Below are positions 32,653 through 53,116 of a stretch of DNA of 64,000 nucleotides, piece after piece (the first letter of the stretch is position 1; each line of letters begins with the position of its first letter). Source of the stretch: Epibacterium ulvae (lineage in GTDB: Bacteria; Pseudomonadota; Alphaproteobacteria; Rhodobacterales; Rhodobacteraceae); contig NZ_FMWG01000015.1 in NCBI RefSeq assembly GCF_900102795.1, positions 1 to 64,000 of the forward strand, in the 5' to 3' direction. Under the pieces are notes generated by a model. That model was given only the letters and a program-made list of their open reading frames with translations. It was not told the DNA's origin and made no database searches. A program made the position numbers and the translations under genes.

Positions 32653-32728
<76 letters not shown>

Positions 32729-32733: not shown

Positions 32734-32738
32734 TCCTT
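32734..32738. repeat. Left target duplication TCCTT
   Basis: TCCTT directly before the left end, six bases after the tRNA-Ala CCA; an identical TCCTT at 46966-46970 directly follows the right end. A 5-bp duplication is the known product of Tn7/Tn5053-type insertion. Confidence 0.7.
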
Positions 32739-32786
32739 TGTAAATGATCACATAGTTCTGCCTTTTGGGTCAGATATTTTGCCTCT
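32739..32786 (+). repeat. Left transposon end with two 22-bp-spaced binding units
   Basis: Begins TGTAAATG. Unit 1 (32746-32765) GATCACATAGTTCTGCCTTT and unit 2 (32768-32786) GGTCAGATATTTTGCCTCT share the pattern G-R-TCA-x-ATA-x-TT-x-TGCCT. The whole 48-bp block recurs at 46973-47020 with one mismatch. Such tandem units are the expected TniA/TnsB-type transposase binding sites. Confidence 0.75.
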
Positions 32787-32861
32787 GGCAGCGCGAGACG
32801 TGTCATCCTGAAAAGATATTGAGACGACTTGCGAAGGTCGAAGTGCGCGCACTTTGGGCAA

Positions 32862-34394
32862 ATTCTGTTGAAAAACTCTGACTTGATCGGGTGCGCATTC
32901 GCTGATTCAATTCCCCTATTGATTGGGGGATTTGGCTATGATGGGACCAAAGCAGGAAGCACAGGCAGCATTGTTCTACGAGTTTTCCTTGGAGGATCAT
33001 GTCCCACAAGATCACCTGCTGCGTTCGATTGATCGGTTCGTCGATCTGGATGACATCCGCCAATATCTTGCCGAGTTTTACAGCCACACAGGCCGTCCTT
33101 CGATTGATCCCGAGTTACTGATCCGCATGCTTTTGGTGGGTTATTGCTTTGGCATCCGGTCAGAGCGTCGGCTGTGTGAAGAGGTGCATCTGAACCTGGC
33201 GTACCGTTGGTTCTGTCGCCTCAATTTGTCTAATCCAGTGCCCAACCACTCAACCTTTTCCAAGAACCGGCACGGTCGTTTCCGAGAGAGCAAGCTGCTG
33301 CGGCATCTATTTGAGAAGACTGTTGCGCGGTGCATCGAAGACGGTTTGGTCAGCGGACAACGTCTTGCAGCGGACGCAAGCCTGATTGAAGCCGACGCCA
33401 ACAAGCAGAACTCCACCCCAAAGGAAGATTGGGACCATAACGCAATTGATCCAAGCGATGCGCCGCGCGCGGTGAAGGAGTATTTGGATGTGCTGGATGA
33501 TGCAGCCTTTGGTGCGGCATCTAAGGTGGATCCCAAGTTCACGTCCCATTCTGATCCGGCAAGCCAATGGACAGCGGCGCGTAAAGGCCCAGCATTCTTT
33601 AGCTATTCCACCAATTATCTGATCGACACCGATCACAGCGTCATTGTGGATGTTGAAGGCACCAGATCAATCCGACAGGCCGAAGTCGGTTCTGTGCGCA
33701 TCATGCTGGATAGGATCAAAGCGCAGCACGACATTGATCCAGAAAGGCTGATTGCAGATAGCGCCTATGGATCAGGCCCGATGTTGGGTTGGCTCGTTGA
33801 TCGCCACATCAAACCTCACATCCCCGTGCTGAACCAAGCAAGCCGGAAGGACGGTACATGGAGCCGCACCGACTTTGAATGGGACCCTGAGAACAATCAA
33901 TACATCTGCCCGGAAGGCGAACCCCTCAAGCAATTCCGCCGAAACTACTCGGACCCCAACCGTGGGCCCACAGGCAAAGGCGTTGCCAAGTACCAAGCTC
34001 TGAAACACACCTGTCAGGCTTGCCCATCAAAGATGAAATGCTGTCCAAATGCCGACGCCCGCAAGATCACTCGCGAAGAACACGAAGATGCCCGTCAGGT
34101 TGCCCGCGACATCGCCAAAACCAAACAATACGCGATCTCGATGCGGTTGCGTAAAAAAGTCGAGATGCTCTTCGCCCACCTTAAACGCATCCTCGGGCTG
34201 GGACGGCTGCGATTACGTGGCCCATGCGGCGCAAACGACGAATTCCTCCTCGCCGCCACCGCCCAGAACCTCCGGAAACTGGCCAAGATCTTTCCTGCAC
34301 CGCAGCAAACGTGAAAAGCCTGATAGGAAAGGCGCTCGCGCCCCATTTTGAACAGCCTTTTCTGCGCTCGCAAACGTTAGTTTTTCCACAGAAT
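32862..34394 (+). mobile_element. IS1182-family insertion sequence
   Basis: 16-bp terminal inverted repeats ATTCTGTTGAAAAACT (32862-32877) and, in reverse complement, ATTCTGTGGAAAAACT (34379-34394), one mismatch, flank a single transposase gene. About 1.53 kb. The element sits 76 bases inside the left end of the tRNA-Ala transposon. A target duplication is not obvious. Confidence 0.75.
32938..34314 (+). CDS. IS1182-family transposase
   Basis: From ATG 32938 (or the adjacent 32941) the product has 458 residues. An N-terminal DUF772-type domain (HVPQDHLLRSIDRFVDL, then GRPSIDPELLIRMLLVGY) precedes a DDE core, with the first Asp in LAADASLIEAD, the second in IADSAYGSG, and the Glu in EMLFAHLKRILG. 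A Cys cluster (CQACPSKMKCCP) lies between, typical of IS1182 enzymes. The gene is full length and undisturbed, so the IS may be active. The inverted repeats lie about 76 bases before and 65 bases after it. Confidence 0.92.
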   Translation: MMGPKQEAQAALFYEFSLEDHVPQDHLLRSIDRFVDLDDIRQYLAEFYSHTGRPSIDPELLIRMLLVGYCFGIRSERRLCEEVHLNLAYRWFCRLNLSNPVPNHSTFSKNRHGRFRESKLLRHLFEKTVARCIEDGLVSGQRLAADASLIEADANKQNSTPKEDWDHNAIDPSDAPRAVKEYLDVLDDAAFGAASKVDPKFTSHSDPASQWTAARKGPAFFSYSTNYLIDTDHSVIVDVEGTRSIRQAEVGSVRIMLDRIKAQHDIDPERLIADSAYGSGPMLGWLVDRHIKPHIPVLNQASRKDGTWSRTDFEWDPENNQYICPEGEPLKQFRRNYSDPNRGPTGKGVAKYQALKHTCQACPSKMKCCPNADARKITREEHEDARQVARDIAKTKQYAISMRLRKKVEMLFAHLKRILGLGRLRLRGPCGANDEFLLAATAQNLRKLAKIFPAPQQT

Positions 34395-34520
34395 CGGCTG
34401 TGAGCGGTCTTACGGCTCGGTTTTTTCGAGCGACCGCTGTGCGGACAAAGGGGGCTTTCGCTGCGATTGCACCAATGCCCGCTGTCGTTGCCTTTCAGGC
34501 GACTATGACGGTTGAGGTGC

Positions 34521-35402
34521 TCATGTACGACTGGATAACTCCACACGCATCAAATCCAGAAAGTCTCCAGCAACCTTTGAGACGGGTTTATCCTGTGGTG
34601 TTAGGACGCCAATTTGGTACTGAACTGAAGGTTCGAACGGTATCCGTACCAGTTCATCATCGAACCCCTGGCTATTGATCGGATCGACAAGAGCGACTGC
34701 ATTCCCAGACCTGACAAATTCAATAAGCGACACAAAATACTGCGCTTCGAGGACGACGTTCCATCGTGCGCCTGCATCTGAAAATGCTCTCGCGATCTGG
34801 TAGGTTGTCATATGGTCGCGGAATAATGCCGCAAACGGAACACCATCTAAATCCTTCGGTGTCAGCACATCGAGCTTCGCGAGTGGATGGTCTTTTGCGA
34901 CAATGCAGTGGCAATGAAAACTGAACTGTTCAGCATCCACACCGACAAATTGCGAGGGTTTTTCTGCAATTGCAATGTCGAACATTTGGCTAGGAAGTTG
35001 CTCAATCACAATATGTGAACTGCGCGAAAGCAGGCGAATCTTAACATGCTCACGGTCTTCTAAAAACTTACTGATGAGGTTTGGTAAGAACTTTATCGAA
35101 ATGCCGGGGAAGGCAGATATTGTTATGTGACCAGATTTCCTTTGTCGCAGTCGGGTTGCTGCTTCATTTGTCCTCTCCACTGCTTCCAACAATCTTTGGG
35201 CATCATCGTAAAAGATTATTGCCTCTGCGGTTGGCTGGAGTCGCCCAGACTTGCGCAGAAACAGTTTGAAACCCAGCCTGTGCTCCAACGTGGCTATCGT
35301 ATTGCTAACCGCAGGTTGTGAAATCCCCAATAGTTGCGAAGCCCGCGTCATTGTGCCGGCCGTCATAATGGCTTGAAAACACTCTATTTCTCGAAATTGC
35401 AT
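34521..35402 (-). CDS. LysR-family regulator divergent from the TRAP operon
   Basis: The product has 293 residues. The LysR winged HTH is at about residues 5-62 (MTRASQLLGISQPAVSNTI as the core). It is followed by the periplasmic-binding-like effector domain. The gene faces away from the TAXI-TRAP operon with 108 bases between starts, the classic LysR arrangement, so it probably controls that operon in response to the imported substrate. Family features suggest membership near the catabolic GbpR/NocR-like LysR proteins, but I would not name it. Confidence 0.9.
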   Translation of the reverse strand: MQFREIECFQAIMTAGTMTRASQLLGISQPAVSNTIATLEHRLGFKLFLRKSGRLQPTAEAIIFYDDAQRLLEAVERTNEAATRLRQRKSGHITISAFPGISIKFLPNLISKFLEDREHVKIRLLSRSSHIVIEQLPSQMFDIAIAEKPSQFVGVDAEQFSFHCHCIVAKDHPLAKLDVLTPKDLDGVPFAALFRDHMTTYQIARAFSDAGARWNVVLEAQYFVSLIEFVRSGNAVALVDPINSQGFDDELVRIPFEPSVQYQIGVLTPQDKPVSKVAGDFLDLMRVELSSRT

Positions 35403-35510
35403 GTCTCACACTATAAATATTGATTATAAACTACGCAATTAAAATTATTAGATTGGATAGTCCTCTGCAGTTAATTTTCAGCATTTCTGGGAAACCCGCG
35501 GGAGCAAAAG

Positions 35511-36497
35511 ATGAAGAAACTGCTGACAACATCTGCACTGGCAGCCATGGTATCGCTTGGGGCGTCTGCATCGGTACAAGCTGAAACCAAGTTCATAACA
35601 ATCGGAACAGGAGGGCCGACCGGCGTCTATTTCGTAGCAGGCAATGCAATCTGCCGCATGATTCACAAAGAAGCCGCTGAAGGCCGCAAAGAGGGTCGAA
35701 AGCACGGCTTCCGTTGTGCGGCTCCGTCGAGCAACGGTTCGACTTACAATTTGGCCCAGATTTCGCAAGGCGAGTTCGAATTTGGCGTGTCGCAATCTGA
35801 CTGGCAGCATTATGCAGTTAACGGGACGTCAGACAAAGTCGTAAACGACGAAGGCTTTCGTGCGGTGTTCTCAGTACATCCCGAACCATTCCAGCTGATT
35901 GTGGCGGCAGATTCCGGCATCAAATCCTGGATGGATCTTGAGGGAAAAAAACTGAACATCGGAAACCCCGGTTCTGGTCAACGTGGCACCACGGAATTGT
36001 TGATGGAGCGGTATGGCACAGATCGTGATTTCTTTGGTCTGATAACCGAAATGACTTCGTCAGAGCACTCGAACGCGCTGTGCGACGGAAACATTGACGC
36101 CTTTACCTATGTTGTTGGCGTTCCCAACTCTGGTGTCGCGGTTGCGACTGAAGGCTGTGGTGCGCAGATTGTCACGCTTAACACTGAAGTAGAGCAGAAA
36201 TTGATTGAAGAGCGCCCTTTCTACGCAGCAACGGACATTCCCGCTGGGGTGTATTCTTCACAGAAAGAAGATGTCACGACGTTTGGCGGGTATGCGACAA
36301 TAGTTTCACATGAAAACGTCGATCCTGACGTCGTTTATGAAGTTGTTCGTGCGGTTTTTGAGAATCTTGATGACTTTCGGGGTCTGCACCCTGCTTTTGC
36401 CAATCTGGAACCTGAAAGCATGATTAACAACGGTAATTCCGCGCCGCTTCATGAAGGTGCCGTGCGCTACTACCGTGAAAAAGGTTGGATCGAATAA
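35511..36497 (+). CDS. TAXI-family TRAP transporter solute-binding protein
   Basis: The product has 328 residues. A Sec signal peptide (MKKLLTTSALAAMVSLGASASVQA) is followed by TKFITIGTGGPTGVYFVAGNAIC, the TAXI-protein N-terminal signature, then GEFEFGVSQSDW and LNIGNPGSGQRGTTELLM. TAXI proteins deliver solutes to fused TRAP permeases; substrates are mostly unknown, glutamate-like in a few cases. GGGAGC is 8-12 bases before the ATG. It heads an operon with the permease, an M20 hydrolase and a TSUP exporter. Confidence 0.93.
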   Translation: MKKLLTTSALAAMVSLGASASVQAETKFITIGTGGPTGVYFVAGNAICRMIHKEAAEGRKEGRKHGFRCAAPSSNGSTYNLAQISQGEFEFGVSQSDWQHYAVNGTSDKVVNDEGFRAVFSVHPEPFQLIVAADSGIKSWMDLEGKKLNIGNPGSGQRGTTELLMERYGTDRDFFGLITEMTSSEHSNALCDGNIDAFTYVVGVPNSGVAVATEGCGAQIVTLNTEVEQKLIEERPFYAATDIPAGVYSSQKEDVTTFGGYATIVSHENVDPDVVYEVVRAVFENLDDFRGLHPAFANLEPESMINNGNSAPLHEGAVRYYREKGWIE

Positions 36498-36523
36498 CTT
36501 CTCCCTCCCTATTGATCCCCCTG

Positions 36524-36548
36524 GGTCCCTGCTGAACAGGCAGGGACC
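36524..36548 (+). terminator. Intercistronic hairpin after the TRAP binding-protein gene
   Basis: A 9-bp perfect stem GGTCCCTGC / GCAGGGACC with a 7-base loop in the 77-base gap before the permease gene. Without a T-run it is likely an attenuator or mRNA-stabilising stem that favours the binding protein. Confidence 0.6.
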
Positions 36549-36574
36549 ATCTCTCTTCCAAACTGGAAAGCACC

Positions 36575-38947
36575 ATGTCAGATAAATCACTGCAACAAGC
36601 GGCCGTTGATGAAGCGCTGAAGGTAGAACGCAGCGATTATTTTGGGCCTTGGCCAAAAACCTTCATCACCCTGGCCGCCCTTTGGTCCCTTTATCAACTT
36701 TGGATCGCTTCGCCGATTCCTTATGCACTTGGCTGGGGTATCTTCGTAGATTTGCCCGCACGCGGGATCCATCTGGCCTTTGGGTTGTTCCTTTGCTTTC
36801 TCTTGTTCCCAGCAAAATTCGAGGAAAAGCGCGAAGGAAAAGCATGGTTCAGCCTGATATTGGCGATCATAGCAGCGGCCAGCGCTTTATACGTATATCT
36901 GGGTTATGACGGCATCGTTCTTCGCGCTGGTATCCTGGCAAATATAGATATCCTGGGATTTAGCATCCCATACGAAGTGATCCTGTCCGCTGTTGGGATG
37001 CTCTTGTTGCTTGAGGCCACAAGACGTGGGATCGGTACGCCGCTGGTTATCGTTTGCGGTGTTTTCATGGTCTATTCGCTGTTTGGTCCCTACATGCCGG
37101 AGATCATTTCCCACAGGGGTGTCTCCATACCACGGATGGTCGGATACAATTGGCTCACCAGCGAGGCGATCTTTGGCATCCCTATCGCGGTTTCGCTTAG
37201 CTATGTGTTTCTATTTGTTCTGTTTGGCGCGTTCATGGACACAGCTGGCGCTGGTAAGTTCTTTCTTGATATGTCTTTTGCCGCCGTCGGGAAGTACCGA
37301 GGCGGACCTGCTAAAGCTGCAATTCTGGCATCTGGCCTGACGGGCATGATTTCGGGCTCTTCGATTGCCAACACGGTTACCACCGGTGCGTTTACCATTC
37401 CGGTGATGAAGAAGACCGGATTTCCTGGTGACAAAGCAGGCGCAATTGAAGTCTCGGCCTCAATCAACGGTCAACTTATGCCACCGATCATGGGGGCTTC
37501 GGCCTTTATCATCGCTGAATTCATCGGGATTTCTTACTATGACGTTATCGTGCATGCGATGATCCCGGCGTTTATCGCATATATCTCGCTATTCTACATA
37601 TCGCATCTGGAAAGCCTGAAAATGGGTCTTGTGGGTCTTCCGAAGGCTGACTTGCCGGCGATGACCAAGACGTTCAAAGAAGGTGCATACTTCCTGGTTC
37701 CAATCGGGATGCTGGTTTACCTACTGTTGGTAAAGCGCTGGAGCCCAGGAAGCGCCGTGTTCTGGTCAATCATGATGATGGCCGGAATCATTATGTTGCA
37801 GCAGGTGATGCTGGCGCGTCAGCATGGTTTGTCGGTCCTGAAAGGTCTCCGGTCGGGTGGGATAATTGTATTCTACTCACTGGTTGCTGGTGCGAAATCA
37901 ATGACAGCCGTTACAGCAGCCGTTGGCGCGGCAGGTATCATTGTCGGCATCGTGTCATCGACAGGGTTGAACAATGCCATGCTGGGAATTGTCGAAGCGC
38001 TGTCACAGGGCAACATCTACATCCTGTTGTTCCTTGTGGCTGTCGTCAGCATAATCCTGGGAATGGGGCTACCGACTACGGCGAATTATATTGTCGTTGC
38101 CTCATTGATGGCGGGCGTAATGGTCGAGTTAGGCAACGCGTCAGGTCTGGTTTTGCCACTGATCGCCGTACACCTTTATGTGTTCTACTTCGGGCTCATG
38201 GCAGATGCGACGCCACCAGTTTGTCTCGCAGCATTTGCGGCCTCCGCCATCTCGGGTGCAGATCCCATGAAGACGGGCATCCAATCTTTCAAATACGCGA
38301 TCCGCACGGCGATCCTTCCAATTGTGTTCATTTTCAACCCAGAACTTTTGCTGGTCGGAGTAGACAGTATCTGGCAAGGGGGCTTAATCTTTGTTGTTGC
38401 GTTGATGGCCATCTTCGCCTTCTCTTCCCTGACACTTCAGTGGATGTTCGTTCGCCTGAAGCTGATTGAATCCGTGTTTCTGGTTTTTGTTGTAATCAGC
38501 CTTTTCCGTCCGGATTTTGTGTTGGATCGATTCAGCCCTGCCTATGAGGACGTACAAATGGCACAAGTTGTTGCCGGTGAAACGTCGGTTGGAGAAGGGC
38601 AGAAAGTGCGTTTGTATGTCACCCGCGAAACCGAATACGGGGACCGCTTCAAACTGTTCACTGCAACTGTTCCAAATGCGTCGGACAATTTGCTGGAAGC
38701 CGTTGGCATCTCAGTTGAGGTCGAAAGTGATGGGCGCACCGTAGTCTCTGACATTGGATTTAATGGCCCAGCCGAACAGCTTGGGGTTACTTGGGGCGAT
38801 TATGTCACCTCAGTTGGTCTAGAGCAGTCCGGTCGGATGCCTAAGGAGATTATCTACATTTTCGGCATTCTGGCTTACGCCGCTGTAGTTCTGATGCAGC
38901 GACGCCGGATGAAGAAAAATCAACAAGCTGATCTAGTGGAAGCGTGA
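36575..38947 (+). CDS. TRAP transporter fused permease (DctQM type, with DUF3394)
   Basis: The product has 790 residues with about 17-18 membrane helices. The first four correspond to the small DctQ subunit and the rest to DctM, including SGMISGSSIANTVTTG, INGQLMPPIMGASAF and LGMGLPTTANYIV, the gating repeats of TRAP permeases. The C-terminal 200 residues are a DUF3394-type soluble segment with a PDZ-like fold hint (FNGPAEQLGVTWGDYV) and a last helix. Such fused permeases work with TAXI binding proteins using an ion gradient. The stop overlaps the next gene's GTG by 4 bases. Confidence 0.93.
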   Translation: MSDKSLQQAAVDEALKVERSDYFGPWPKTFITLAALWSLYQLWIASPIPYALGWGIFVDLPARGIHLAFGLFLCFLLFPAKFEEKREGKAWFSLILAIIAAASALYVYLGYDGIVLRAGILANIDILGFSIPYEVILSAVGMLLLLEATRRGIGTPLVIVCGVFMVYSLFGPYMPEIISHRGVSIPRMVGYNWLTSEAIFGIPIAVSLSYVFLFVLFGAFMDTAGAGKFFLDMSFAAVGKYRGGPAKAAILASGLTGMISGSSIANTVTTGAFTIPVMKKTGFPGDKAGAIEVSASINGQLMPPIMGASAFIIAEFIGISYYDVIVHAMIPAFIAYISLFYISHLESLKMGLVGLPKADLPAMTKTFKEGAYFLVPIGMLVYLLLVKRWSPGSAVFWSIMMMAGIIMLQQVMLARQHGLSVLKGLRSGGIIVFYSLVAGAKSMTAVTAAVGAAGIIVGIVSSTGLNNAMLGIVEALSQGNIYILLFLVAVVSIILGMGLPTTANYIVVASLMAGVMVELGNASGLVLPLIAVHLYVFYFGLMADATPPVCLAAFAASAISGADPMKTGIQSFKYAIRTAILPIVFIFNPELLLVGVDSIWQGGLIFVVALMAIFAFSSLTLQWMFVRLKLIESVFLVFVVISLFRPDFVLDRFSPAYEDVQMAQVVAGETSVGEGQKVRLYVTRETEYGDRFKLFTATVPNASDNLLEAVGISVEVESDGRTVVSDIGFNGPAEQLGVTWGDYVTSVGLEQSGRMPKEIIYIFGILAYAAVVLMQRRRMKKNQQADLVEA

Positions 38948-40221
38948 AAATGGAAGCCAATATTACCGAGCCAAATGTACGCAACAAAATATGGTTTTGG
39001 CTTGACAAAAATCGAAAACAAGTCGTCGATCTAACCCTGCGTCTGGTGAAAATCGAAAGCCAACAGCCCGAAGGAGATGTTCGGGCGATGGCAGACGAAA
39101 TTGAAGCCATTGCAGCGTCGATACCTAGTGTCGAGATTGAGCGCTTTGTCTCAAAAGAACCGGTGCATAATGTCGTCGTCCGTCTCCGGGGCAATCGCCC
39201 CGGAAAACGTCTGATCCTAAACGGGCATATGGATACATTTCCTGCCGGCGATTTGTCTGGCTGGACCCGCGATCCAAAAGGCGAAGTGGACGGCGACAAG
39301 GCTTATGGACTGGGTATCTCTGATATGAAGGGCGGCATCGCGGCCAGTCTTTTGGCAATGAAATGTCTCGCCGATACCGGGGCGGATTTCCCTGGCGAAA
39401 TCGTGGGTACATTTGTCGGCGACGAAGAAACTATGGGGGTGCTGGGAACCCAATACTTGCTCGACAGCGTTCCGCACGCAAAGGGCGACGCTATGATAAG
39501 TGGCGACGTCGGGTCCCCGCATATTTTGCGGTTTGGCGAGAAAGGAATGATCTGGGCCAAGGTTACGGCAAATGGCAAATCCACCCATGCCGCCCATGTT
39601 CACCGCGGGGAAAGCGCAATCGAGAAACTGACCGCCGTTATGGACAGCTTCAAATCCTTGCGGTCTTTTCCGGTTGGAAACACAGGCAACAATGTTGTCC
39701 CGTTCATTGATCAGTGGTCTGAAAAATCCGAACGCATGTCAGGTAAAGGTGAAACGGACGTGCTGAAAAATGTGACAATCACATTCGGCACAATTGACGG
39801 CGGCAGATTGTCGAATCTGGTTGCCGACAGGGCTAAATTCACTTGTGATGTCCGGCTGCCGGTTGGTGTTTCAGTCGCGCAGATCGAGGCCGAGATGAAC
39901 CGGATATGTCAGGATTTTGATGGGGTTGAGCTTGAAATTACGCGCCGCTACGAACCCAGCTGGACCGCCCCGGACCACCCCGTGATCGAAGCGGTGCGTC
40001 AAAACTGTATTGAGGTTTTGGGACAAGAGCCGGCAGTAACCATGCGCGTCGGGGCGTCTGACGCCAGGCTGTATCGCTACGCAGGCGTGCCAGTCGTTGT
40101 CTGCGGATTGATGGCCCATAACCTGGGCACAGCCGACGAATACATCATGTTGGATGAACTCTATTCCCTTGTCGATATCTTCGCCTTGTCGGCGCACGAC
40201 TATCTGGTGAAGAATGCTTGA
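38944..40221 (+). CDS. M20-family metallohydrolase (ArgE/DapE type)
   Basis: From the GTG at 38944, which overlaps the permease stop, the product has 425 residues; an ATG two codons later is equally possible. Zinc-ligand motifs of the M20 family are in order: NGHMDTFPAG, GISDMKGG, GDEETMG (general-base Glu-Glu), SGDVGSP and a C-terminal AHNLGTADEY. A dimerisation domain sits at about 195-310. M20 enzymes cleave N-acyl or dipeptide amide bonds. Placed between an importer and an exporter gene, it probably hydrolyses the imported compound; the substrate is unknown. Confidence 0.9.
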   Translation: MKMEANITEPNVRNKIWFWLDKNRKQVVDLTLRLVKIESQQPEGDVRAMADEIEAIAASIPSVEIERFVSKEPVHNVVVRLRGNRPGKRLILNGHMDTFPAGDLSGWTRDPKGEVDGDKAYGLGISDMKGGIAASLLAMKCLADTGADFPGEIVGTFVGDEETMGVLGTQYLLDSVPHAKGDAMISGDVGSPHILRFGEKGMIWAKVTANGKSTHAAHVHRGESAIEKLTAVMDSFKSLRSFPVGNTGNNVVPFIDQWSEKSERMSGKGETDVLKNVTITFGTIDGGRLSNLVADRAKFTCDVRLPVGVSVAQIEAEMNRICQDFDGVELEITRRYEPSWTAPDHPVIEAVRQNCIEVLGQEPAVTMRVGASDARLYRYAGVPVVVCGLMAHNLGTADEYIMLDELYSLVDIFALSAHDYLVKNA

Positions 40222-40957
40222 AATCACGATCGTATCTGTCGCCGCTTTTCTTGCAGGTGTCCTGAATTCAATTGCTGGCGGAGGTAGTTTTCTAACCTTC
40301 CCAGCGCTGGTCTTCGTTGGATTGCCTCCTATCCCGGCGAATGCAACAAGCGCTGTTGCGGTTTTTCCGGGATATCTCAGCGGAGCGGTAGGATTTCTGT
40401 CAGAGATTCAAGCCTACGACAGGCGCGCACTATTTGTCCTGTTGGGTTTGTCAGTCTTAGGCGGGGTCCTGGGAGCAGTTTTGTTGCTGATAACGCCGTC
40501 TGAAGTATTCAGTTTTATCGTTCCATGGCTGTTGCTATTTGCGACGCTGCTATTTGCGTTCGACAAGCAAATTCGCAGCTGGACCAAAGGTGAACGCAAA
40601 GCGAACCCCTTTGGCAGAAACGCGGCCACACTGGCCGTCACGACCTATGGCGGATACTTCAACGGTGGATTGGGAATTGTCCTTCTTGCGCTGTTTTCGG
40701 GTCTGGGGTTTCGGGACATCAACCTGATGAACGGGTTAAAAAACGCATTGTCGTTCATCTTATCCGGAGCCTCCGTCGTGACGTTCCTGCTGGCCGGGAT
40801 CGTCTACCTGAAAGAAGCCGCTTTTATGATGATCCTCGCAACAATTGGAGGATATGTAGGCGCAAGACTCGCAAAGAAGCTGCCGGTAAATGTGATCCGT
40901 TCCATCGTAATTTTCGTCGGGTTAGGAATGACGGTGGTGTTTCTGGCACGCAGCTAA
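40214..40957 (+). CDS. TSUP-family transporter (TauE/SafE type)
   Basis: The product has 247 residues with seven to eight hydrophobic helices and two internally similar halves. FLAGVLNSIAGGGSFLTFPAL at the N-terminus and TYGGYFNGGLGI in the second half are the paired family motifs. Members export sulfite, sulfoacetate or related organosulfur anions, or import sulfite. The start overlaps the M20 stop by 8 bases. Together with the TRAP importer and M20 enzyme this hints at a sulfur-containing or carboxylated product leaving the cell, which is inference. Confidence 0.9.
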   Translation: MLEITIVSVAAFLAGVLNSIAGGGSFLTFPALVFVGLPPIPANATSAVAVFPGYLSGAVGFLSEIQAYDRRALFVLLGLSVLGGVLGAVLLLITPSEVFSFIVPWLLLFATLLFAFDKQIRSWTKGERKANPFGRNAATLAVTTYGGYFNGGLGIVLLALFSGLGFRDINLMNGLKNALSFILSGASVVTFLLAGIVYLKEAAFMMILATIGGYVGARLAKKLPVNVIRSIVIFVGLGMTVVFLARS

Positions 40958-41048
40958 GTTCCCCCAATCGGCATTCTTCAGCCTTACACAGCATTACCAA
41001 TGTTGTCGTAGAACCAATTTTGTCAGGACAATGACGGCTTTGGACTGA

Positions 41049-41228
41049 GATCGGTCATTGAGCAGCAGGGGCGCGGCAGATCTCGCCGTGACCCTTCTGC
41101 TGCACCGCTGCAGGTCGGGTTCGAGTCCAGCCGAGACGCAATCCCTGCCGGAACAACAATCTCCCAATTCTTCGGACACAGGCGTACCCGTGCGCCGCAA
41201 ACGCTGGACCTTCAACAATGGCCAATGA
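41049..41228 (+). pseudogene. Possible C-terminal scrap of a TniA-type transposase
   Basis: Between the TSUP gene and tniB one frame is open from a stop at 41046 to TGA at 41226-41228, overlapping the tniB start by 11 bases. It reads a Ser/Pro/Gln-rich tail ending VRRKRWTFNNGQ. In Tn5053-like elements tniA ends at or over the tniB start, so this may be what is left of it. The sequence is too short to show transposase motifs, so this is only positional evidence. Confidence 0.3.
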
Positions 41229-42168
41229 TCGCATCAAACACACCGCCAAACGCGTTTCAACTCTACGCAATCACTTCATCAATCATGAACGTTTTGAACC
41301 GCTTGAGGCCCAGTTTACGCTCTTGCTTGAGAAACGTCTGGCAGACATCGAGGCCGGGCAAATCAATGAAGCTCACGGCATGGCCCTTTCAGGGCCATCT
41401 GGCGCGGGCAAGACCACTGCCATGACTTTCCTTGCACAGCAAACACAAGAACGTCTGCGGGCGGAGGGGCATGGCGACAGGTGTATTGTGAGCCTTCGTG
41501 CGCCATCACCGGCCACACAGAAATCTGTAGGCCAAGCCTTGCTGCGGGAACTTGGTTACAAGATCAGCTCTGAACGGCAGGCATGGTACATATGGGATCT
41601 GGTGCGTCATCAGCTCAAGGAGCTGGGGGTTGCTTTTATTCTTCTCGATGAAGCCCAGGAACTCGCATCGCGCGGCACCAAACATGAATTGGCTTCGGTG
41701 GCTTCCATGCTGAAAACACTTATGACTGATCCTGAATGGCCGGTCGGAATCATCCTTTCGGGCACGCTGGAGTTGGAAGGTATTTTGAACCATGACCCAC
41801 AGCTTGCGCGGCGCATGAAGACGGTCCGATTTAACAGCCTCTCTCCGATCGCAGACGCACAAAACGCAGTCGATTTGATCGGGGCATATTGTGACGCTGG
41901 GGAGGTCTCAGCTCACGAAAGCATCCAGAAACAGGCGATGGGCAAACGCCTAATTCATGCAGCCGCAAATCAATTCGGTTTGGTGATCGAGCTTACAATC
42001 GCAGCGCTTGAACAGGCTTTTCTTGAAGCGTCCTCGACCCTGCGACGGGAACACTTTGCCAAGGCCTATCATTGCCGATCGGCCTGCGACGATACCCTCA
42101 ATCCCTTTATTATCCCAGATTTTTACAGGGTCGATCCCCGCCAGGTTTTCCCGGAGGCAGATACATGA
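41218..42168 (+). CDS. tniB: TniB-type transposition ATPase
   Basis: The product has 316 residues, an AAA+ ATPase of the TniB/TnsC group. Walker A GPSGAGKTT is at 59-67, Walker B ILLDEAQE at 141-148, sensor-type region IILSGTLELEGIL near 179-191, then AHESIQKQA and a C-terminal helical lid. In Tn5053- and Tn7-like systems it binds target DNA and hands it to the transposase. Its stop overlaps the tniQ start by 4 bases. The transposase partner is missing upstream. Confidence 0.88.
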   Translation: MANDRIKHTAKRVSTLRNHFINHERFEPLEAQFTLLLEKRLADIEAGQINEAHGMALSGPSGAGKTTAMTFLAQQTQERLRAEGHGDRCIVSLRAPSPATQKSVGQALLRELGYKISSERQAWYIWDLVRHQLKELGVAFILLDEAQELASRGTKHELASVASMLKTLMTDPEWPVGIILSGTLELEGILNHDPQLARRMKTVRFNSLSPIADAQNAVDLIGAYCDAGEVSAHESIQKQAMGKRLIHAAANQFGLVIELTIAALEQAFLEASSTLRREHFAKAYHCRSACDDTLNPFIIPDFYRVDPRQVFPEADT

Positions 42169-43961
42169 TGTTTGCAATGGCTCAAGCACTCCCGCTCTCA
42201 GTGGAGTTTAAGCAAGGTGAGACGGCGGCGTCATTGGCCTCACGCCTGACCCGCAAGAATGGCGCTCCGCGGGTCATTACCTTCAGCTCAGACGTGGGCC
42301 TTACTTATCTTGGAATTACCAACGGCGAACCAGACGATGTAGTCCGTCTAGCATCCTTGGCCGGTTGCTCCGCCGTGGATCTTCGGCACGGCACACCGCA
42401 ACTCACGTCTCCTGGCTGGTTACAACTGGGCGCGGAAACGATCAAGTTCACGGCCTTCAATCGGACTGCGCTCAAGGCCTGTCCTGAATGCTTGAGGGAG
42501 GCGACGAAATCGACGGACGCGGCACATTTTGGCGTCTGGCAACTCACCTCTGTAAGGACCTGCAAACGTCACGGCTGTTATTTGGTGCCAATGCCAAAGG
42601 CGCGCAGCAACAAGGACACGTTTGATTTCATGCACCTGTGCGATCAATACGATCCGATATTGTCTGAGCCCGCGAATGAATCTGATCTCAAACTGGAAAA
42701 CTATCTTCGAGATCGGATTGAGAATGGTCCGGGCTCCTCTTGGTTGGACAAATTGCCCTTCCACGTCGCGGCGCAAACCTGCGAGGGCTTTGGTTTGCTG
42801 CTGACGCAGGGGGCCAGTTTCAAACGTGATGATGCAACCCCAGCTCAATGGGCGAGAGCAGGCAGCGCCGGGTTTGACGTGCTGAGAAAAGGACCAGATG
42901 CGGTTCGACGAAAGCTCAAGGAAATCCAAGAGGCACATCCAGTGGACAACACGCTCTACCGCACGCGGTATCGCGTGTTCTTTGAATGGCTCCGACATCG
43001 TGATGACGATCCAGCGTTTGACGTCATCCGTGATCTGGTGCGCGATTTTATCTTCAAGAATTTCCCGATTGCAGAAGGGGCAATTGTCTTGGGGCGGCCC
43101 TGCCCCGAGCAATACGTGCATTCTCTATCCACCGCTCGCAGCCGCTATGGCGTCTCTGGCTGGCAGCTTGCACGACGACTGGAAGCAATGGGGCTCGCGA
43201 CCCGCAACACCTCCGGCCGCGGTTTTGTGCTGAAGCGATATGTCTCAACCGAAGTTATCAACGACATCGTAACGGATTCCGATGCATTGCTGAATGCTGG
43301 AGAGACTGCTTCAAAGCTTGGGATCGAGCGGTTCATGCTTACCAAACTTACGAATGCGGGACTGATCTCCAAATACTTCGCCGACAAGAATGCCTACCCA
43401 CACTACCATCCACGCGAAATCGAACGTTTTTTGGCCGTGCTACGCGATTTGATTGCCGCGAAAGTTTCTGGCAAAGCCTACCTCGATATTCCCTCAGCAT
43501 CGCACCGGCTCCGGATACCAACAGAACGGGTGGTCGAAATCATCTTGAGAAACCGGATCGCTCTGGCGGCTTCAGACCCTGACGCGGTACAGTTTCCAGA
43601 ATTTCAAGTGGCATTGGAGGACTTGAAGGAAATCATAGCAAGGGACCATGAAGGCACAATTCGACCAGCTCGCGCCGCTGAAATCCTTGGCTTGAATATC
43701 CGCACTATTAGAGGCCTGCTGGACCAGAATTTTTTAAAGCCAAAACAAGTTACCGAACTTCAGACCGGCAGAAAGCGCAGATACGTCTGTGCGAAGTCAA
43801 TGGAGCGGTTTCGCGAGCGATACATCTCCGTCGTTGAGCTTTCAAATCAATCTGGTCGATTACCAGGAGCTGAGGCCGTCATTCGTTTGGATCAAGGCTT
43901 AAAGCCGCTTCCACTCGGTACCAGATGTCGTTTAATTTTCAGACGAGACGATGTTCTATGA
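42165..43961 (+). CDS. tniQ: TniQ/TnsD-like target-selection protein
   Basis: From ATG 42165 (ATGA overlap with tniB; a second ATG at 42168) the product has 598 residues. The N-terminal TniQ domain (about 8-160) includes a zinc-finger pattern C106-x2-C109 with C133-x2-H136, in KACPECL and TCKRHGC. The remaining 430 residues contain several HTH-like segments (for instance GETASKLGIERFMLTKL, ARAAEILGLNIRTIRGLL). It is longer than the Tn5053 TniQ and nearer in size to Tn7 TnsD, which recognises a fixed attachment site. It could be the factor that directs insertion next to tRNA-Ala. Confidence 0.85.
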   Translation: MMFAMAQALPLSVEFKQGETAASLASRLTRKNGAPRVITFSSDVGLTYLGITNGEPDDVVRLASLAGCSAVDLRHGTPQLTSPGWLQLGAETIKFTAFNRTALKACPECLREATKSTDAAHFGVWQLTSVRTCKRHGCYLVPMPKARSNKDTFDFMHLCDQYDPILSEPANESDLKLENYLRDRIENGPGSSWLDKLPFHVAAQTCEGFGLLLTQGASFKRDDATPAQWARAGSAGFDVLRKGPDAVRRKLKEIQEAHPVDNTLYRTRYRVFFEWLRHRDDDPAFDVIRDLVRDFIFKNFPIAEGAIVLGRPCPEQYVHSLSTARSRYGVSGWQLARRLEAMGLATRNTSGRGFVLKRYVSTEVINDIVTDSDALLNAGETASKLGIERFMLTKLTNAGLISKYFADKNAYPHYHPREIERFLAVLRDLIAAKVSGKAYLDIPSASHRLRIPTERVVEIILRNRIALAASDPDAVQFPEFQVALEDLKEIIARDHEGTIRPARAAEILGLNIRTIRGLLDQNFLKPKQVTELQTGRKRRYVCAKSMERFRERYISVVELSNQSGRLPGAEAVIRLDQGLKPLPLGTRCRLIFRRDDVL

Positions 43962-44061
43962 AACAACCGAATGCCATGCTAGCGCGACACGCGACGAGCG
44001 TGTAGCGTGAATGCAAAGACGAAACCCAACACTGAACAAATTAACCCATGGAGGGTATAGC

Positions 44062-44166
44062 ATGTCTAACGAAACCAAAATCGCAGCAACGTCCATTGCG
44101 CTTTCTTTGTTTGGAATTGGCCTCGTCATCGCTGAGCGCGTACACCACGGATGGTGGCCGTTTTAA
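44062..44166 (+). CDS. Small single-span membrane protein (34 residues)
   Basis: An ATG with GGAGG seven to eleven bases upstream opens a 34-codon frame: MSNETKIAATSIALSLFGI, then a helix through LVIAERV and an end HHGWWPF. One membrane helix spans about residues 7-25, with a short polar N-terminus and an aromatic C-terminus. The good ribosome binding site and clean composition argue for a real gene; the overlapping longer frame from 44048 starts on the Shine-Dalgarno itself and is less likely. It follows tniQ by 100 bases. Function unknown. Confidence 0.5.
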   Translation: MSNETKIAATSIALSLFGIGLVIAERVHHGWWPF

Positions 44167-44426
44167 GAGACGTGAAATTCTCACGGCACATGCTCGAAGC
44201 AAAAACTTTGCCGAGCGCGGAGGTGATGCGGTTTGGCCGAAATAGCTATCGCTTTCCGAGCTAACTGCTCAAATAAACTGATCAAGATGTGCAAGTACAC
44301 GTAGAGACGGCCGTGCCAAAGGCCGTCGTATCCAGCCATGAATTCGTCTTCGGTCCATTTCTCAACAACGGCTCATGTGTCTTTGTGTAAGGGACTGAAG
44401 GCGGCCATTAATCGTACATCAATGCA
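44167..44426. other. Non-coding stretch with a hairpin
   Basis: No convincing gene. A perfect 7-bp hairpin GACGGCC / GGCCGTC with 8-base loop lies at 44306-44327 without a T-run. The space directly downstream of the antitoxin gene, where a toxin gene would be expected, contains no open frame. Confidence 0.5.
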
Positions 44427-44672
44427 TTAGAGGTCTACTGGCTTCGCCGAAACGGAAGATCTCTGAGGTTCAAAGTCAATTTCAGCCAACCCTGGCATAG
44501 ACAGGGCTTGAACGATATTGGCTCCTTTAGAGGTGATCTGCTGATACTGCGAATAACTCATCAGCACATGAGTTGGCTCTCCGCTCTCTGTTACAAAAAC
44601 TGGGCCGCTCACGGCATCCTGCATGGCTTTGAGCAGGTTCTGCTTCAACTCATCATGGGTAAATTTAGCCAT
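44427..44672 (-). CDS. Phd/YefM-family antitoxin (orphan)
   Basis: The product has 81 residues: MAKFTHDELKQNLLKAM then PVFVTESGEPTHVLMSYSQYQQI, the Phd/YefM fold that binds operator DNA through its N-terminus and neutralises a Doc, RelE or PIN-type toxin with its C-terminus. The C-terminus PGLAEIDFEPQRS resembles antitoxins paired with VapC/FitB-like PIN toxins. No toxin frame follows within 260 bases, so the antitoxin is an orphan. A Shine-Dalgarno GGGGG precedes the ATG. Confidence 0.82.
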   Translation of the reverse strand: MAKFTHDELKQNLLKAMQDAVSGPVFVTESGEPTHVLMSYSQYQQITSKGANIVQALSMPGLAEIDFEPQRSSVSAKPVDL

Positions 44673-44983
44673 AACAATTCCCCCTTCGCGGTGATTCTGA
44701 GAAAGACTGAACCCAAGCGAAACTTCCCCTCGCAGCTGAACGTGCGTCTCAACAGTTTACGATACACAGCGCACAATACGCACACTTAATGATTATGCAA
44801 ATTGGTTGCACTCTCCGAACCTAGCTCCCAGTACATAATAAACTTGGCTTCGTATGAAGAATGCTAAACCGCTAAAAGCGGCTCTTCGTACTAAGTGCGG
44901 CCAATGACGGCTTCGAGGCCAGAGGCACCGATGCTGTGCCTTACACCAATGTCTGGTCTAGGAAGGGCGAGCGACTGTCAGGC
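44673..44983. other. Intergenic region between antitoxin and deacetylase genes
   Basis: About 310 bases with no supported gene. The left part should hold the antitoxin promoter. A small CCGCT-AAA-AGCGG hairpin occurs near 44869-44881. I see nothing else. Confidence 0.4.
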
Positions 44984-45901
44984 CTATTCCCGCTTCCCGC
45001 CAAGCACTCTTTCAATCTGAGACAGCCCCTGCGGTCCCGCATAATTATCCAGGCGAGAAAACAGAGGATGCATCATAGCTTCTTCAACAGGAATGAAAGA
45101 CCAGCCTTGCTCGTCATACCAATCAAGAAGTGTCCCAAAGTGATCTGCATTGATCCGATTGAGGTGGATGAGCAGGATATGATCAACGTCGCTACCGAGT
45201 TCTTCAATCGCTAGATTTTGGAAGAATGCCGTGCGCTCCTTCATGTGGGCCAAATAATTCTGTGCTATGATGGCAGCTGCTTCGCCATTGCCGTCTTCGA
45301 GCGCCGCAACATAGTCAGCATTGAACTGCCATTCGTCGTTATCAATGGTCACTGGGACATTTTGATACCCAAGTTCCGATAGGATTTCTGTCGCTGCCAC
45401 CTTCGTTGCTTCTGTTTCTCCTTCACGCAAGAATGGAAAACGATAAAACCGTTGCTCATCAATCCACTGCTGCAACACCTCGTCAGTCCGACGCGTTTCT
45501 TCGAAAAATGCATCGCGTGTCAGCGTTCCATAATCAGGATGCGACCAGCTATGATTTCCGATTGTGTGGCCAGCATCTGCAAAAGCTTGTAGCGCATGAA
45601 GTGATCGGGCATTGATTTGTTGCCCCACTGCAAAGCCAGTTGCGACAATACCATGCTTTCGCAGAGCAGCCGTGATTTGATTGGTGTATCTCAAGCCGTC
45701 TTCTGGACTGGTTCGCGATGGCATGACGTAAGGAAGATCATCAATGGTTATGGCGACACGTGAGGGTGCTGTCGTGACATCTGAAGCAGCGACCAGCTCT
45801 GGGTTTACGGCAGTGTTTTGCACACACGAGGCAAGTGCAAAGCCCAGCACTCCTGCCATCAACGCTCCCGAAAAAAGACAAAACAGTTTGCTGCGCAACA
45901 T
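44984..45901 (-). CDS. Polysaccharide deacetylase-family lipoprotein
   Basis: The product has 305 residues. The signal peptide ends in a lipobox (FALASC, Cys26), so the protein should be a membrane-anchored lipoprotein in the periplasm. NodB-homology motifs are clear: ITIDDLP (Asp54/Asp55), HTIGNHSWSHPD (His117, His121, the metal ligands) and FRFPFLREG (modified motif 3). The family removes N- or O-acetyl groups from peptidoglycan, chitin-like glycans or other amides. It is cargo of the transposon; the substrate is unknown. Confidence 0.88.
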   Translation of the reverse strand: MLRSKLFCLFSGALMAGVLGFALASCVQNTAVNPELVAASDVTTAPSRVAITIDDLPYVMPSRTSPEDGLRYTNQITAALRKHGIVATGFAVGQQINARSLHALQAFADAGHTIGNHSWSHPDYGTLTRDAFFEETRRTDEVLQQWIDEQRFYRFPFLREGETEATKVAATEILSELGYQNVPVTIDNDEWQFNADYVAALEDGNGEAAAIIAQNYLAHMKERTAFFQNLAIEELGSDVDHILLIHLNRINADHFGTLLDWYDEQGWSFIPVEEAMMHPLFSRLDNYAGPQGLSQIERVLGGKRE

Positions 45902-46046
45902 CTCTAATACCTGCTCAAATTCAATAATTTTGACAGGATCATAACCGCGTGAGTTGATCGAGGCCAGCGATCAGAAATCAGCAAGCGGCCATTGGCGCAA
46001 GCGCGACGAAGGTCGAGAACGAACCGAAAACCCCCCAAATTCTTAG

Positions 46047-46658
46047 CTATGCGATTTGAACAATTCGGCTCAACGCACACAAGGGGTCGTTTTCAACGAA
46101 ATGGGCTATCGCGGATTTCATGGCTTCGAAATCGCTTCCGTAAAAATAGAGCGCTGTCTCTTTACTGCCTTCCCAATGTCCACGAAAACTACCTATCCCT
46201 TCCATAAGTTCATTGCAGCGAGAAACGATGTTGTTGATATCCGATGCAGCATAAACTTCGTCAGGCAAGTCTGTTCCGTTTAGAAAAAGTGCCAAGCCTT
46301 CCAACTTCCCAAATCGGATCGCATCTTGCTCTGTAGATACTTTGAGCAACGAACCTTTCGGTGCGCCAAGCTGTTCTAAAGTGTCAATAATTGTGCCTAG
46401 AGTGCCTTTAGAAGCGTCATTCACCACAATTTCAACATCGCAAAATTCGATACCGTCAGGTTCGTCCGTCAACTGCGTGCCCCCTCCAGTAACTTCTCCC
46501 AACCCTGATGATCTCAACACTTCATCAAGAGGGTCTTCAAAGTAGTCACCTCGGTCAATAGGTTGAACACGAGCATTGAGCTGCGCAATGACCATAGTCG
46601 GATTGCTTGCAGGTGCTTCTTTGGGCTTTTTAATTCCAAACAATTTGGATATCCACAT
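46047..46658 (-). CDS. Hypothetical protein, transposon cargo
   Basis: The product has 203 residues (MWISKLFGIKKPKEAPASN). It is acidic and soluble, without signal peptide. Its region CDVEIVVNDASKGTLGTIIDTLEQLGAPKGSLLKV followed by LEGLALFLNGTDLPDEVY resembles proteins annotated as hypothetical with possible immunity-protein folds, but I cannot name a family. A longer frame on the same strand to 46843 is in another frame and is a shadow. The base composition is AT-richer than the neighbouring core genes, consistent with foreign origin. Confidence 0.7.
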   Translation of the reverse strand: MWISKLFGIKKPKEAPASNPTMVIAQLNARVQPIDRGDYFEDPLDEVLRSSGLGEVTGGGTQLTDEPDGIEFCDVEIVVNDASKGTLGTIIDTLEQLGAPKGSLLKVSTEQDAIRFGKLEGLALFLNGTDLPDEVYAASDINNIVSRCNELMEGIGSFRGHWEGSKETALYFYGSDFEAMKSAIAHFVENDPLCALSRIVQIA

Positions 46659-46829
46659 TTTGAATACTCTTCTATTTTTGGTGCGCTCAATAACCAGATA
46701 GAACGGGCACTACAATGTTCGCTTCGTCCGCATAGTTGCCATTTAGGTGTTCGATGCTGAACGTCTGCTTTCGTTGAAGTCACATCAAAGCACCCCACAT
46801 TTCTCGAAACCAATTTTATTGGGTTTTCG

Positions 46830-46965
46830 TAATAAGACTGCATGTGATCTGAGAGGCAGACTTATGTGACCAAAGAGGCAAAATTGGCTGTGCGAAGAAT
46901 TTTGGTCCCTTTGCTTTTAAAGAGAAAAACTCAGCATCAGAGGCAAAACTTTGTGCTCCTTCTCA
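46830..46965 (-). repeat. Right transposon end with inverted binding units
   Basis: Read on the minus strand, units related to the left-end pattern lie at 46939-46958, 46874-46893, 46852-46871 and 46830-46849; the last three start exactly 22 bases apart. The 46852-46871 and 46939-46958 units each match left unit 1 at 16 of 20 positions. The terminus is 46965, followed by TCCTT. Confidence 0.68.
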
Positions 46966-46970
46966 TCCTT
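46966..46970. repeat. Right target duplication TCCTT
   Basis: Identical to 32734-32738 and directly adjacent to the right terminus. Two bases (GT) separate it from the next left-end repeat. Confidence 0.7.
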
Positions 46971-46972
46971 GT

Positions 46973-47020
46973 TGTAAATGATCACATAGTTCTGCCTTTT
47001 TGGTCAGATATTTTGCCTCT
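46973..47020 (+). repeat. Second left end of a related transposon
   Basis: 48 bases identical to 32739-32786 except one position, in the same orientation, again beginning TGTAAATG with two units 22 bp apart (46980-46999, 47002-47020). Weaker similarity continues for about 40 bases (shared CTGAAAAG) and then stops, so it belongs to a diverged relative rather than a recent duplicate. Its right end is not found in the window. Confidence 0.7.
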
Positions 47021-47182
47021 AGCGGAACGGGACTTGCCACGCTGAAAAGCAGTTCAGACCGCGCAAACCAACCGAAAGCCGCGGGATTAACGACTGAGAG
47101 TGGCACTTAGCCACTAACTCGATCATGCCCTGCAATTAAGGACCTTCGAGAACCCAGTTTTGGGAAAGTCTAGGCTCAGGAC

Positions 47183-47641
47183 TCATAACCAGTAAATGAC
47201 GAGAGCGGCGAGTGCGATTGCGGACAAGAAAACCTTTGGGCACCTGTCGTATCGTGTTGCTACCCGCCGCCAGTCTTTAAGTCTGCCAAACATGATCTCG
47301 ATGCGGTTGCGTCGCTTGTATCTGCGCTTGTCGTATTTGACGGTTTTCTTGCGTTGCTTTCGACCAGGTATGCAGGCGCGTATCCCTTTGTCTTGCAACG
47401 TTTCTCTGAACCAATCAGCGTCATAACCCCGGTCGCCGAGCAGCCATTTGACGTTTGGCAAGCTGCCTACCAAAGCTCGTGCACCGATGTAATCGCTGAC
47501 CTGACCGGCGGTCACAAAGAAATTCAGAGGACGCCCTTGGCTGTCGCAGATGGCGTGCAGCTTTGTGTTCATACCTCCCTTGGTGCGACCGATCATAGGG
47601 CCACGTCCCCCTTTTTCACCGCAAGGCTGGACGCCATGCAA
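47183..47641 (-). CDS. IS5-family transposase, second frame (frameshift product)
   Basis: This frame supplies the C-terminal DDE part: GDRGYDADW (second Asp) and YKRRNRIEIMFGRLKDWRRVATRYDR (Glu). It has no good start of its own. It joins the first frame at the slippery run AAAAAGGGGG (plus-strand 47607-47616), consistent with programmed frameshifting known in IS427 elements. Its stop lies inside the terminal inverted repeat. Confidence 0.88.
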   Translation of the reverse strand: MHGVQPCGEKGGRGPMIGRTKGGMNTKLHAICDSQGRPLNFFVTAGQVSDYIGARALVGSLPNVKWLLGDRGYDADWFRETLQDKGIRACIPGRKQRKKTVKYDKRRYKRRNRIEIMFGRLKDWRRVATRYDRCPKVFLSAIALAALVIYWL

Positions 47642-47940
47642 TGAGCTTTGAGATATGTTGCGTCGATCATGACCGTCTTCTCTTCACCATGATCAGCGGC
47701 CAAGCCGATCAGCATCTCGGCGAAGATGCCCTTGTCGCTCCACCGCTTCCAGCGATTGTAGAGTGTCTTGTGCGGGCCGTATTCCTTAGGCGCATCGCGC
47801 CATCGTAACCCGTTGCGATTGATGAAGATAATGCCGCTCAGCACCCGACGATCATCAACGCGAGGTTTGCCGTGTGACTTGGGGAAGAAGGGCTCAAGAC
47901 GCGCCATCTGCGCATCTGTCAGCCAGAATAGATCAGACAT
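47593..47940 (-). CDS. IS5-family transposase, first frame
   Basis: Starting at ATG 47940 (MSDLFWLTDAQMARLEPFFP), this frame of 115 residues carries the N-terminal DUF4096-type domain (KPRVDDRRVLSGIIFI, GLRWRDAPKEYGPHKTLYNRW) and the first catalytic Asp in MIDATYLKAH. It ends just after the slippery AAAAAGGGGG. Fusion with the second frame gives a normal-size transposase. Both frames are intact, so the IS may be active. Confidence 0.9.
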   Translation of the reverse strand: MSDLFWLTDAQMARLEPFFPKSHGKPRVDDRRVLSGIIFINRNGLRWRDAPKEYGPHKTLYNRWKRWSDKGIFAEMLIGLAADHGEEKTVMIDATYLKAHCMASSLAVKKGDVAL

Positions 47941-48007
47941 GTTCACCACTCGATTTTGCGAACCGTGAATCACGCAGCCAACCGGAAATCAATGGGTCCT
48001 GACCCTA

Positions 48008-53106: not shown

Positions 53107-53116
53107 GGGGGCGGCT

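Follow-up and report, generated by a model that had tools for sequence, protein, structure and literature searches.

Tn7-like transposons settle and stack behind tRNA-Ala(GGC) in marine Rhodobacterales

What kind of element occupies the 14.2 kb immediately behind the tRNA-Ala(GGC) gene of Epibacterium ulvae, and what places it at this gene? The DNA analyzed here (the window) comprises bases 1-64000 of contig C23 (72,167 bp), one of the 30 contigs of the assembly. The block in question, E1, extends from 32739 to 46965 and the next stacked element, E2, has its left end at 46973. A preliminary description had proposed that the block is a Tn7/Tn5053-like transposon using the end of tRNA-Ala as attachment site. 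Our results identify a family of Tn7-like elements in marine Rhodobacterales which settle behind tRNA-Ala and stack there, with metabolic or defence cargo; E1 is very probably a Tn7-like cut-and-paste transposon homing to the 3' flank of tRNA-Ala(GGC).

E1 is 14,227 bp long and the 5-bp target duplication TCCTT was found on either side (32734-32738 and 46966-46970), as previously described. Its two alignable termini, TGTAAATGATCACATAG and, inverted, TGAGAAGGAGCACAAAG, each touch one TCCTT copy. The tRNA-Ala(GGC) gene, located by ARAGORN on the plus strand at 32653-32728, ends 10 bp before the left terminus, in agreement with the distance first reported. In the left, tRNA-proximal end (32739-32790, plus strand), a motif also present behind tRNA-Ala in other genomes, the core TTYTGCCTY starts 18 and 39 bp from the terminus (cores from 32756 and 32777); in the right end (46850-46965, minus strand) it starts 18, 83 and 105 bp from the terminus (46948, 46883 and 46861). 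Both ends had been said to carry 20-bp units spaced by 22 bp: the repeats are there, but the 22-bp spacing holds only for the inner right pair, the left cores being 21 bp apart, and the right end has an extra copy near the terminus. The window contains two copies of a 24-bp end sequence; the second of them, at 46973, sits 2 bp past the right duplication of E1 and forms the left end of E2 (46973-47022, plus strand), an element extending beyond the window. No match to this sequence with up to three mismatches was obtained in 100 shuffles.

As the preliminary description had suggested, genomes were searched with the end sequence. A left-end pattern which includes no tRNA sequence was run against 394 genomes of the taxonomic family, allowing up to three mismatches, and yielded 22 matches in 18 genomes; no match was obtained with the reversed control pattern. 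The exact form of the pattern identified 15 stretches in further genome contigs. After removal of 3 duplicates the pooled matches represent 34 distinct copies, 25 of which were found behind tRNA-Ala(GGC) (ARAGORN) and six more at junctions, directly after the right end of another element. Scattering of the ends at random did not occur: the remaining three copies are one behind tRNA-Pro(CGG) (L063), a two-ended mini-element (L061) and a complete element at a non-tRNA site in Thioclava sp. SK-1 (L087). The mini-element, from genome G010, is approximately 0.5 kb long and, with the right terminus placed 1 bp nearer the start, shows the 5-bp repeat ACGAC. In the genome with the tRNA-Pro copy (G130; L063/L100) the left end is family-like and no tns genes were seen in approximately 39 kb downstream.

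In the 25 copies at tRNA-Ala the distance between the terminus and the start of the T-loop sequence GGTTCGA is 33 bp (4 copies), 34 bp (18 copies) or 35 bp (3 copies), the terminus being 9-11 bp past the GGCTCCACC of the tRNA and 8-10 bp past its CCA end. This distance is constant while the bases adjoining the terminus vary widely, indicating that position, and not local sequence, is fixed. The site behind tRNA-Ala(GGC) is a fixed attachment site, and the reading of the 14.2-kb block as a transposon attached at the tRNA end is supported by this search.

The flank of the attachment tRNA-Ala could be read in 17 of the 18 genomes of the same genus, the locus of the remaining one (G303) having no tRNA. 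By visual inspection, nine of the 17 sites carry an end, three a degenerate end and five none. The DNA downstream of the five endless sites (1.5 kb read) is not alike among them, so that the right-hand host boundary could not be fixed.

The presence of tniB and tniQ inside E1 was confirmed by Pfam. The tniB/tnsC gene (41218-42168, plus strand; PF05621, 69.9 bits) codes for an AAA+ regulator and is followed by tniQ (42165-43961, plus strand; PF06527, 52.9 bits), which codes for a long protein predicted to be a TnsD-like target selector. The TnsC of the window is 58-63% identical to that of eight of the ten relatives compared, and 45% and 36% to the remaining two. Complete relatives have a contiguous tnsA-tnsB-tnsC-tniQ operon which reads towards the right end and is mostly located beside it: tniQ ends at most about 0.3 kb from the right end, except in Falsirhodobacter (4.3 kb) and in the window (3 kb). 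The operon and the attachment gene therefore occupy opposite ends. The TnsB of the relative at L086 matches Mu-transpos_C with 22.4 bits (cut-off 21.7). The TnsA-like open reading frame (ORF), of approximately 173 residues, lies inside the operon, and in a relative at tRNA-Arg (G324) it gives a Pfam score of 28.2. The family is classed by its gene content as Tn7-like rather than Tn5053-like, since the operon of its complete relatives consists of four contiguous genes, among them a TnsA-like ORF, and contains no resolvase; only the first half of the original double label is retained. No resolvase was detected among the 10 ORFs of E1 that were scanned; resolvase-like ORFs, of serine-recombinase type, were seen by eye inside stacks but outside the operon, in E2 (window 63323-63874) and in the stack of Tritonibacter mobilis F1926 (L049 26362-26961).

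E1 itself is defective, tnsA and nearly all of tnsB having been lost: E1 contains no significant TnsA or TnsB match, and tblastn for the lost TnsB gave no significant result in the window. A frame on the plus strand at 41190-41228, ending in ...RRKRWTFNNGQ-stop, overlaps the start of tniB, at the same place where the TnsB of complete relatives ends in ...RKRWGFNDG. The resemblance, noted by eye over about 12 residues and below significance in tblastn, probably marks a remnant of the 3' end of tnsB. The left part of E1 is filled instead by an insertion sequence (IS) and a cargo cluster described below. A similar loss was observed in T. mobilis F1926, in which a TnsB piece (residues 620-663) is continued directly by the final 28 residues of TnsC, with an intact-looking TniQ after them. 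Other copies are damaged: tnsB is in two frames in G138 and, in Salipiger pallidus, tnsA matches over 110 of 173 residues.

Exact 5-bp duplications were found for four two-ended elements: E1, those of Pseudoroseicyclus tamaricis (G018; 12,959 bp, CCCTT on both sides, at tRNA-Ala) and Thioclava sp. SK-1 (16,411 bp, GGCGT on both sides), and that of T. mobilis A3R06 (33,808 bp, GCATT on both sides).

Elements of this family are frequently stacked. At the right junction of E1, TCCTT is followed by GT and then by the left end of E2 (7 bp between ends); the simplest history would be that E2 arrived first and E1 landed 2 bp nearer the tRNA. On contig C6 of the same genome a right end is again followed immediately by a left end, the third one. 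Fifteen right ends were located, that of SK-1, which escaped the right-end pattern, being read by eye; matches at window 60004, L146 16167, L086 7076 and L149 18276 and reverse matches inside left ends were dropped by eye. A left end abuts 12 of the 15 (a degenerate one in G018), or eight of 11 when the window, C6, L083 and L086, whose right ends were reached through the finding or through a junction itself, are left out. Exactly 5 bp separate the two ends in 10 of the 12 junctions, and 7 bp in the window and in C6. Tn7-like elements build genomic islands by repeated insertion. In two T. mobilis strains the flanks of the stack are 97.0% (tRNA side) and 97.6% (uvrB side) alike, and the stretch between them measures approximately 17 kb in one and 36 kb in the other, with some of the common blocks rearranged; the stack thus turns over within the species. 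The stacks suggest weak target immunity, or elements distinct enough to escape it.

The length of E2 depends on whether contigs C23 and C6 are joined. They overlap by exactly 1587 bp, but this overlap is a copy of an IS whose two tips also form the ends of contig C12, and the join was not adopted. The duplication at C6 is CTCCT and differs from the CTTGT left of E2. A truncated tnsA of this family is located approximately 6.2 kb past the window end (C23, 70177-70494), shortly before the IS copy at the contig end. C12 (about 103 kb) is bounded on either side by tips of this IS copy, and could therefore be a circular replicon with that IS or be located between C23 and C6.

TniQ is the component of which the type correlates with the site. 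The TniQ frames are 587-600 residues long, like TnsD, and an HTH_17 match was found in the L086 member. TniQ of the window is 61-63% identical to those of G002, G018, T. mobilis A3R06 and Roseivivax halodurans, 52% to that of Falsirhodobacter, 40% to those of Pseudodonghicola and G138, and 34% to those of SK-1 and S. pallidus. The elements of SK-1 and A3R06 have TnsA, TnsB and TnsC proteins 91, 93 and 96% identical and TniQ proteins only 36% identical; with G002 included, the values for SK-1 are 83-96% for TnsA/B/C and 36-37% for TniQ. A3R06 carries its copy in a tRNA-Ala stack, and that of SK-1 lies about 100 bp after a metallophosphoesterase-like gene. In the ten records listed for this gene, the matches (50-59%) fall on annotated metallophosphoesterases or unannotated places; Pfam assigned it no family, and no such gene was found in 40 kb of S. 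pallidus, which has the SK-1 type of TniQ. The SK-1 site bears GGTTCGATC at 34 bp, where no tRNA was called; the idea of a tRNA relic was rejected, neither ARAGORN nor Rfam detecting a tRNA. Behind tRNA-Arg(ACG) of G324 stands the left end of a distant sister element with a full operon (L149 5357-19917); by our own count the distance to GGTTCGA is again 34 bp. The identity of this element to the others is 40-41% for TnsA, 38-40% for TnsB, 30-42% for TnsC and 24-27% for TniQ. From this correlation we infer that TniQ may pick the target. Searches with the TniQ profile gave no match in solved structures and none that was confirmed in viral contigs.

A second TniQ-family gene (519 residues) occurs in the A3R06 element (L157 27047-28603) and in the F1926 stack (L049 28472-30028), about 2 kb before tnsA and on the opposite strand. 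Its product, with approximately 31% identity to the TniQ of the window over 308 residues, could provide a second targeting route.

Two further loci of the E. ulvae genome carry genes of this kind. A complete, distant tnsA-tnsB-tnsC-tniQ operon is located on contig C20 (L006 8380-14133), its TnsC being about 34% identical to that of the window; neither its ends nor its attachment site could be located, and the 19 kb read gave no tRNA call. The third TniQ gene of the genome lies on contig C29 near 294.4 kb (L007), approximately 1.2 kb from tRNA-Arg(TCT).

We propose that the long, TnsD-like TniQ would bind the T arm and acceptor stem in the 3' part of the tRNA gene and recruit the AAA+ protein TnsC, and that TnsA and TnsB would then insert the element by cut-and-paste at a fixed distance of 33-35 bp beyond the T-loop sequence, with a duplication of 5 bp. 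Insertion would leave the tRNA gene intact, and the site would for this reason remain usable. Later arrivals would insert between the tRNA and the earlier element, producing the stack tRNA-L..R-L..R, and older members would lose tnsA and tnsB by deletion and IS insertion and persist as cargo islands. As a tentative extension, to which we give rather less than even credence, the T arm of tRNA genes may serve as a ruler: TniQ would read GGTTCGA and the acceptor stem, the end would be placed 33-35 bp off, and a TniQ swap on a nearly unchanged TnsABC would move the element to tRNA-Arg, to tRNA-Pro or to a non-tRNA site with GGTTCGATC at 34 bp, weak or absent target immunity leading to queues behind one tRNA gene.

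Several observations weigh against homing to tRNA-Ala as set out here. The duplications are exact in only the four two-ended elements named above out of ten; a fifth (L061) needs the 1-bp shift of its right terminus, and those of T. mobilis F1926, G138, Lutimaribacter pacificus (L092), S. pallidus and G252 are mismatched. The first four of these mismatched elements are in stacks, where two ends need not share one insertion. The A3R06 element starts about 160 bp, and not 10 bp, past tRNA-Ala, with a separate left end at the tRNA itself. Many tRNA-linked ends elsewhere have no tni or tns genes in the 0.2-19.5 kb read, and no strict empty site within one species was found among the 17 tRNA-Ala sites of the genus. 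Some relatives are imperfect: at L086 the rve domain of TnsB (30.6 bits, cut-off 32.6) and the TnsA-like ORF (22.2, cut-off 26.5) score below their cut-offs, the SK-1 tnsA frame as taken has a stop within its first residues, and in G018 the start of the TniQ frame comes too late by about 8 residues. TniQ type and site are not strictly paired, since G138, whose TniQ is of the 40% type, likewise occupies tRNA-Ala, and in S. pallidus a left end is found at tRNA-Ala approximately 21 kb from a TniQ of the SK-1 type; in both genomes the flanking 5-mers of the two ends differ.

The location of E1 raises the question whether the island was brought in by a tyrosine-recombinase integrase, with the tni genes as passengers. 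Such integrases usually use tRNA 3' ends as att sites, but no integrase was found among the 10 scanned ORFs of E1, the far end of the block shows inverted termini, cores and a 5-bp duplication and not a tRNA fragment, and no stretch of E1 matches the tRNA flank exactly over more than 11 nt; this origin is extremely improbable. It is also very improbable that a guide RNA matching the tRNA gene, and not TniQ, directs the homing. Excerpts of PMC11406308 describe crRNAs against tRNA genes in V-K CRISPR-associated transposons (CASTs). In E1, however, PADLOC run on five proteins matched only TniQ and TnsC models, and no direct repeats of at least 20 bp within 200 bp were found. The longest exact matches between site and element, in four elements and part of E2, were 9-12 nt in the five stretches, within the values of mononucleotide shuffles; the length of the TniQ frames and the HTH_17 match also favor a TnsD-like reader.

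The stacks could be due to recombination, or to circular forms joined through R-5bp-L junctions, and not to serial insertions. The 10 junctions of exactly 5 bp could be given by a circle junction, and several outer 5-mers are mismatched, but serial insertion at one fixed spot yields the same 5 bp. Moreover, the 7 bp of the window junction consist of TCCTT, which matches the left duplication, and GT, as would result from E1 landing 2 bp upstream of the point where E2 had inserted, and in G018 CCCTT lies on both sides of a two-ended element, with a degenerate left end after it. We regard this alternative as quite improbable; recombination after insertion is still likely in some arrays. E1 could also be the remnant of a deletion between two elements, its ends deriving from different insertions and the two TCCTT copies agreeing by chance or through shared host sequence. 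This would fit the unrelated cargo and IS found in place of tnsA and tnsB, and the host flank itself gives CTCCTTGT-like sequence to every copy. The exact identity of 5 bp at exact termini has a chance of about 1 in 1024, although it is less surprising if both flanks come from the same site, and we consider this history unlikely.

The preferred reading, a Tn7-like element homing to tRNA-Ala, has close parallels. TnsD/TniQ homing to tRNA genes has been published for CRISPR-associated relatives of Tn7, as seen in parts of PMC10293859 and PMC11406308: the type I-D CAST CyCAST and the type I-B2 CAST PmcCAST share the Tn7-like core and a TnsD-type protein directing insertion downstream of an intact tRNA gene. 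Both carry CRISPR systems, whereas no sign of CRISPR was found in E1, the copy scanned (10 ORFs by profile, five proteins by PADLOC, repeat search and guide-like matches), and CyCAST inserts about 30-33 nt past the end of tRNA-Leu, according to a passage of PMC10293859, compared with 8-10 bp past the CCA end of tRNA-Ala(GGC) here. According to PMC11406308, it is usually the end with overlapping sites that lies closest to the site recognized by TniQ; the tRNA-side end with its two closely spaced cores fits this. The Tn5053/Tn402 group (tniA-tniB-tniQ-tniR) shares the TniB and TniQ family names; it differs from the complete relatives described here, whose contiguous operon includes a TnsA-like ORF and lacks a resolvase, and an excerpt of PMC11406308 gives plasmid resolution sites as the targets of Tn5053.

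Tn7 itself is similar in having TnsA-like, TnsB, TnsC and TnsD-like TniQ proteins, repeated end sites, a 5-bp duplication and insertion beside the recognized gene and not within it. It differs in that this gene is glmS and not a tRNA gene, and in that the tns end of Tn7 faces glmS, whereas here the operon occupies the end opposite to the attachment gene, and tniQ is its outermost gene. Insertion of Tn7-like elements downstream of tRNAs receives mention in a passage of Benler et al. 2021 (PMC8649781); the terms Rhodobact* and Alphaproteobact* are absent from the main text of that survey, which, as far as it was available to us, does not describe the Rhodobacterales family or its stacks. Searches of the library consulted retrieved no paper on this Rhodobacterales tRNA-Ala Tn7-like family. 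The elements are a new Rhodobacterales family within the known tRNA-homing Tn7 type, with an unusual attachment gene, offset and stacking habit.

The remainder of E1 is cargo. Just inside the left end is an IS on the plus strand (32855-34399; transposase ORF 32923-34314, Pfam DUF772/DDE, 79% to a second copy), which we take to be IS1182-like. Profile matches identified the genes of the main cargo block (34521-40957) as coding for a LysR regulator (34521-35402, minus strand) and, on the plus strand, a TAXI-type TRAP binding protein (35511-36497), a fused TRAP permease (36575-38947), an M20 peptidase/deacylase (38944-40221) and a TauE-type transporter (40214-40957). Further cargo between tniQ and the right end (43962-46849; ORF list and profile matches), all on the minus strand, comprises a small ORF (44427-44672), a polysaccharide deacetylase (44984-45901, profile match) and an uncharacterized 203-residue ORF (46047-46658). 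The small ORF resembles a Phd/YefM-type antitoxin and had no PADLOC match.

The cargo of E2 (window 48199-61680) looks like a set for choline-sulfate/carnitine/betaine degradation: choline-sulfatase (685 bits, cut-off 433), a keto-acid cleavage enzyme (510, cut-off 430) and a betaine/choline ABC ATPase (334, cut-off 327) match above their cut-offs, and Rieske oxygenase and L-carnitine-dehydrogenase-like proteins below. Near its left end, two overlapping ORFs (window 47183-47973) resemble an IS5-type transposase by eye. In T. mobilis F1926 a Septu-like PtuA/PtuB pair (PADLOC; L049 16985-19208) is cargo right behind the tRNA-side end.

These findings describe a compact Tn7 family in whose analyzed copy no trace of CRISPR was seen, and whose attachment gene was found in 17 of the 18 genomes of the genus. 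Its natural pairs, with near-identical TnsABC and different TniQ at different sites, are suited to asking what in TniQ reads DNA, and its frequent stacks raise the question of how far target immunity of the Tn7 type reaches. The stacks also explain how islands of metabolic and defence genes can accumulate behind tRNA-Ala(GGC).

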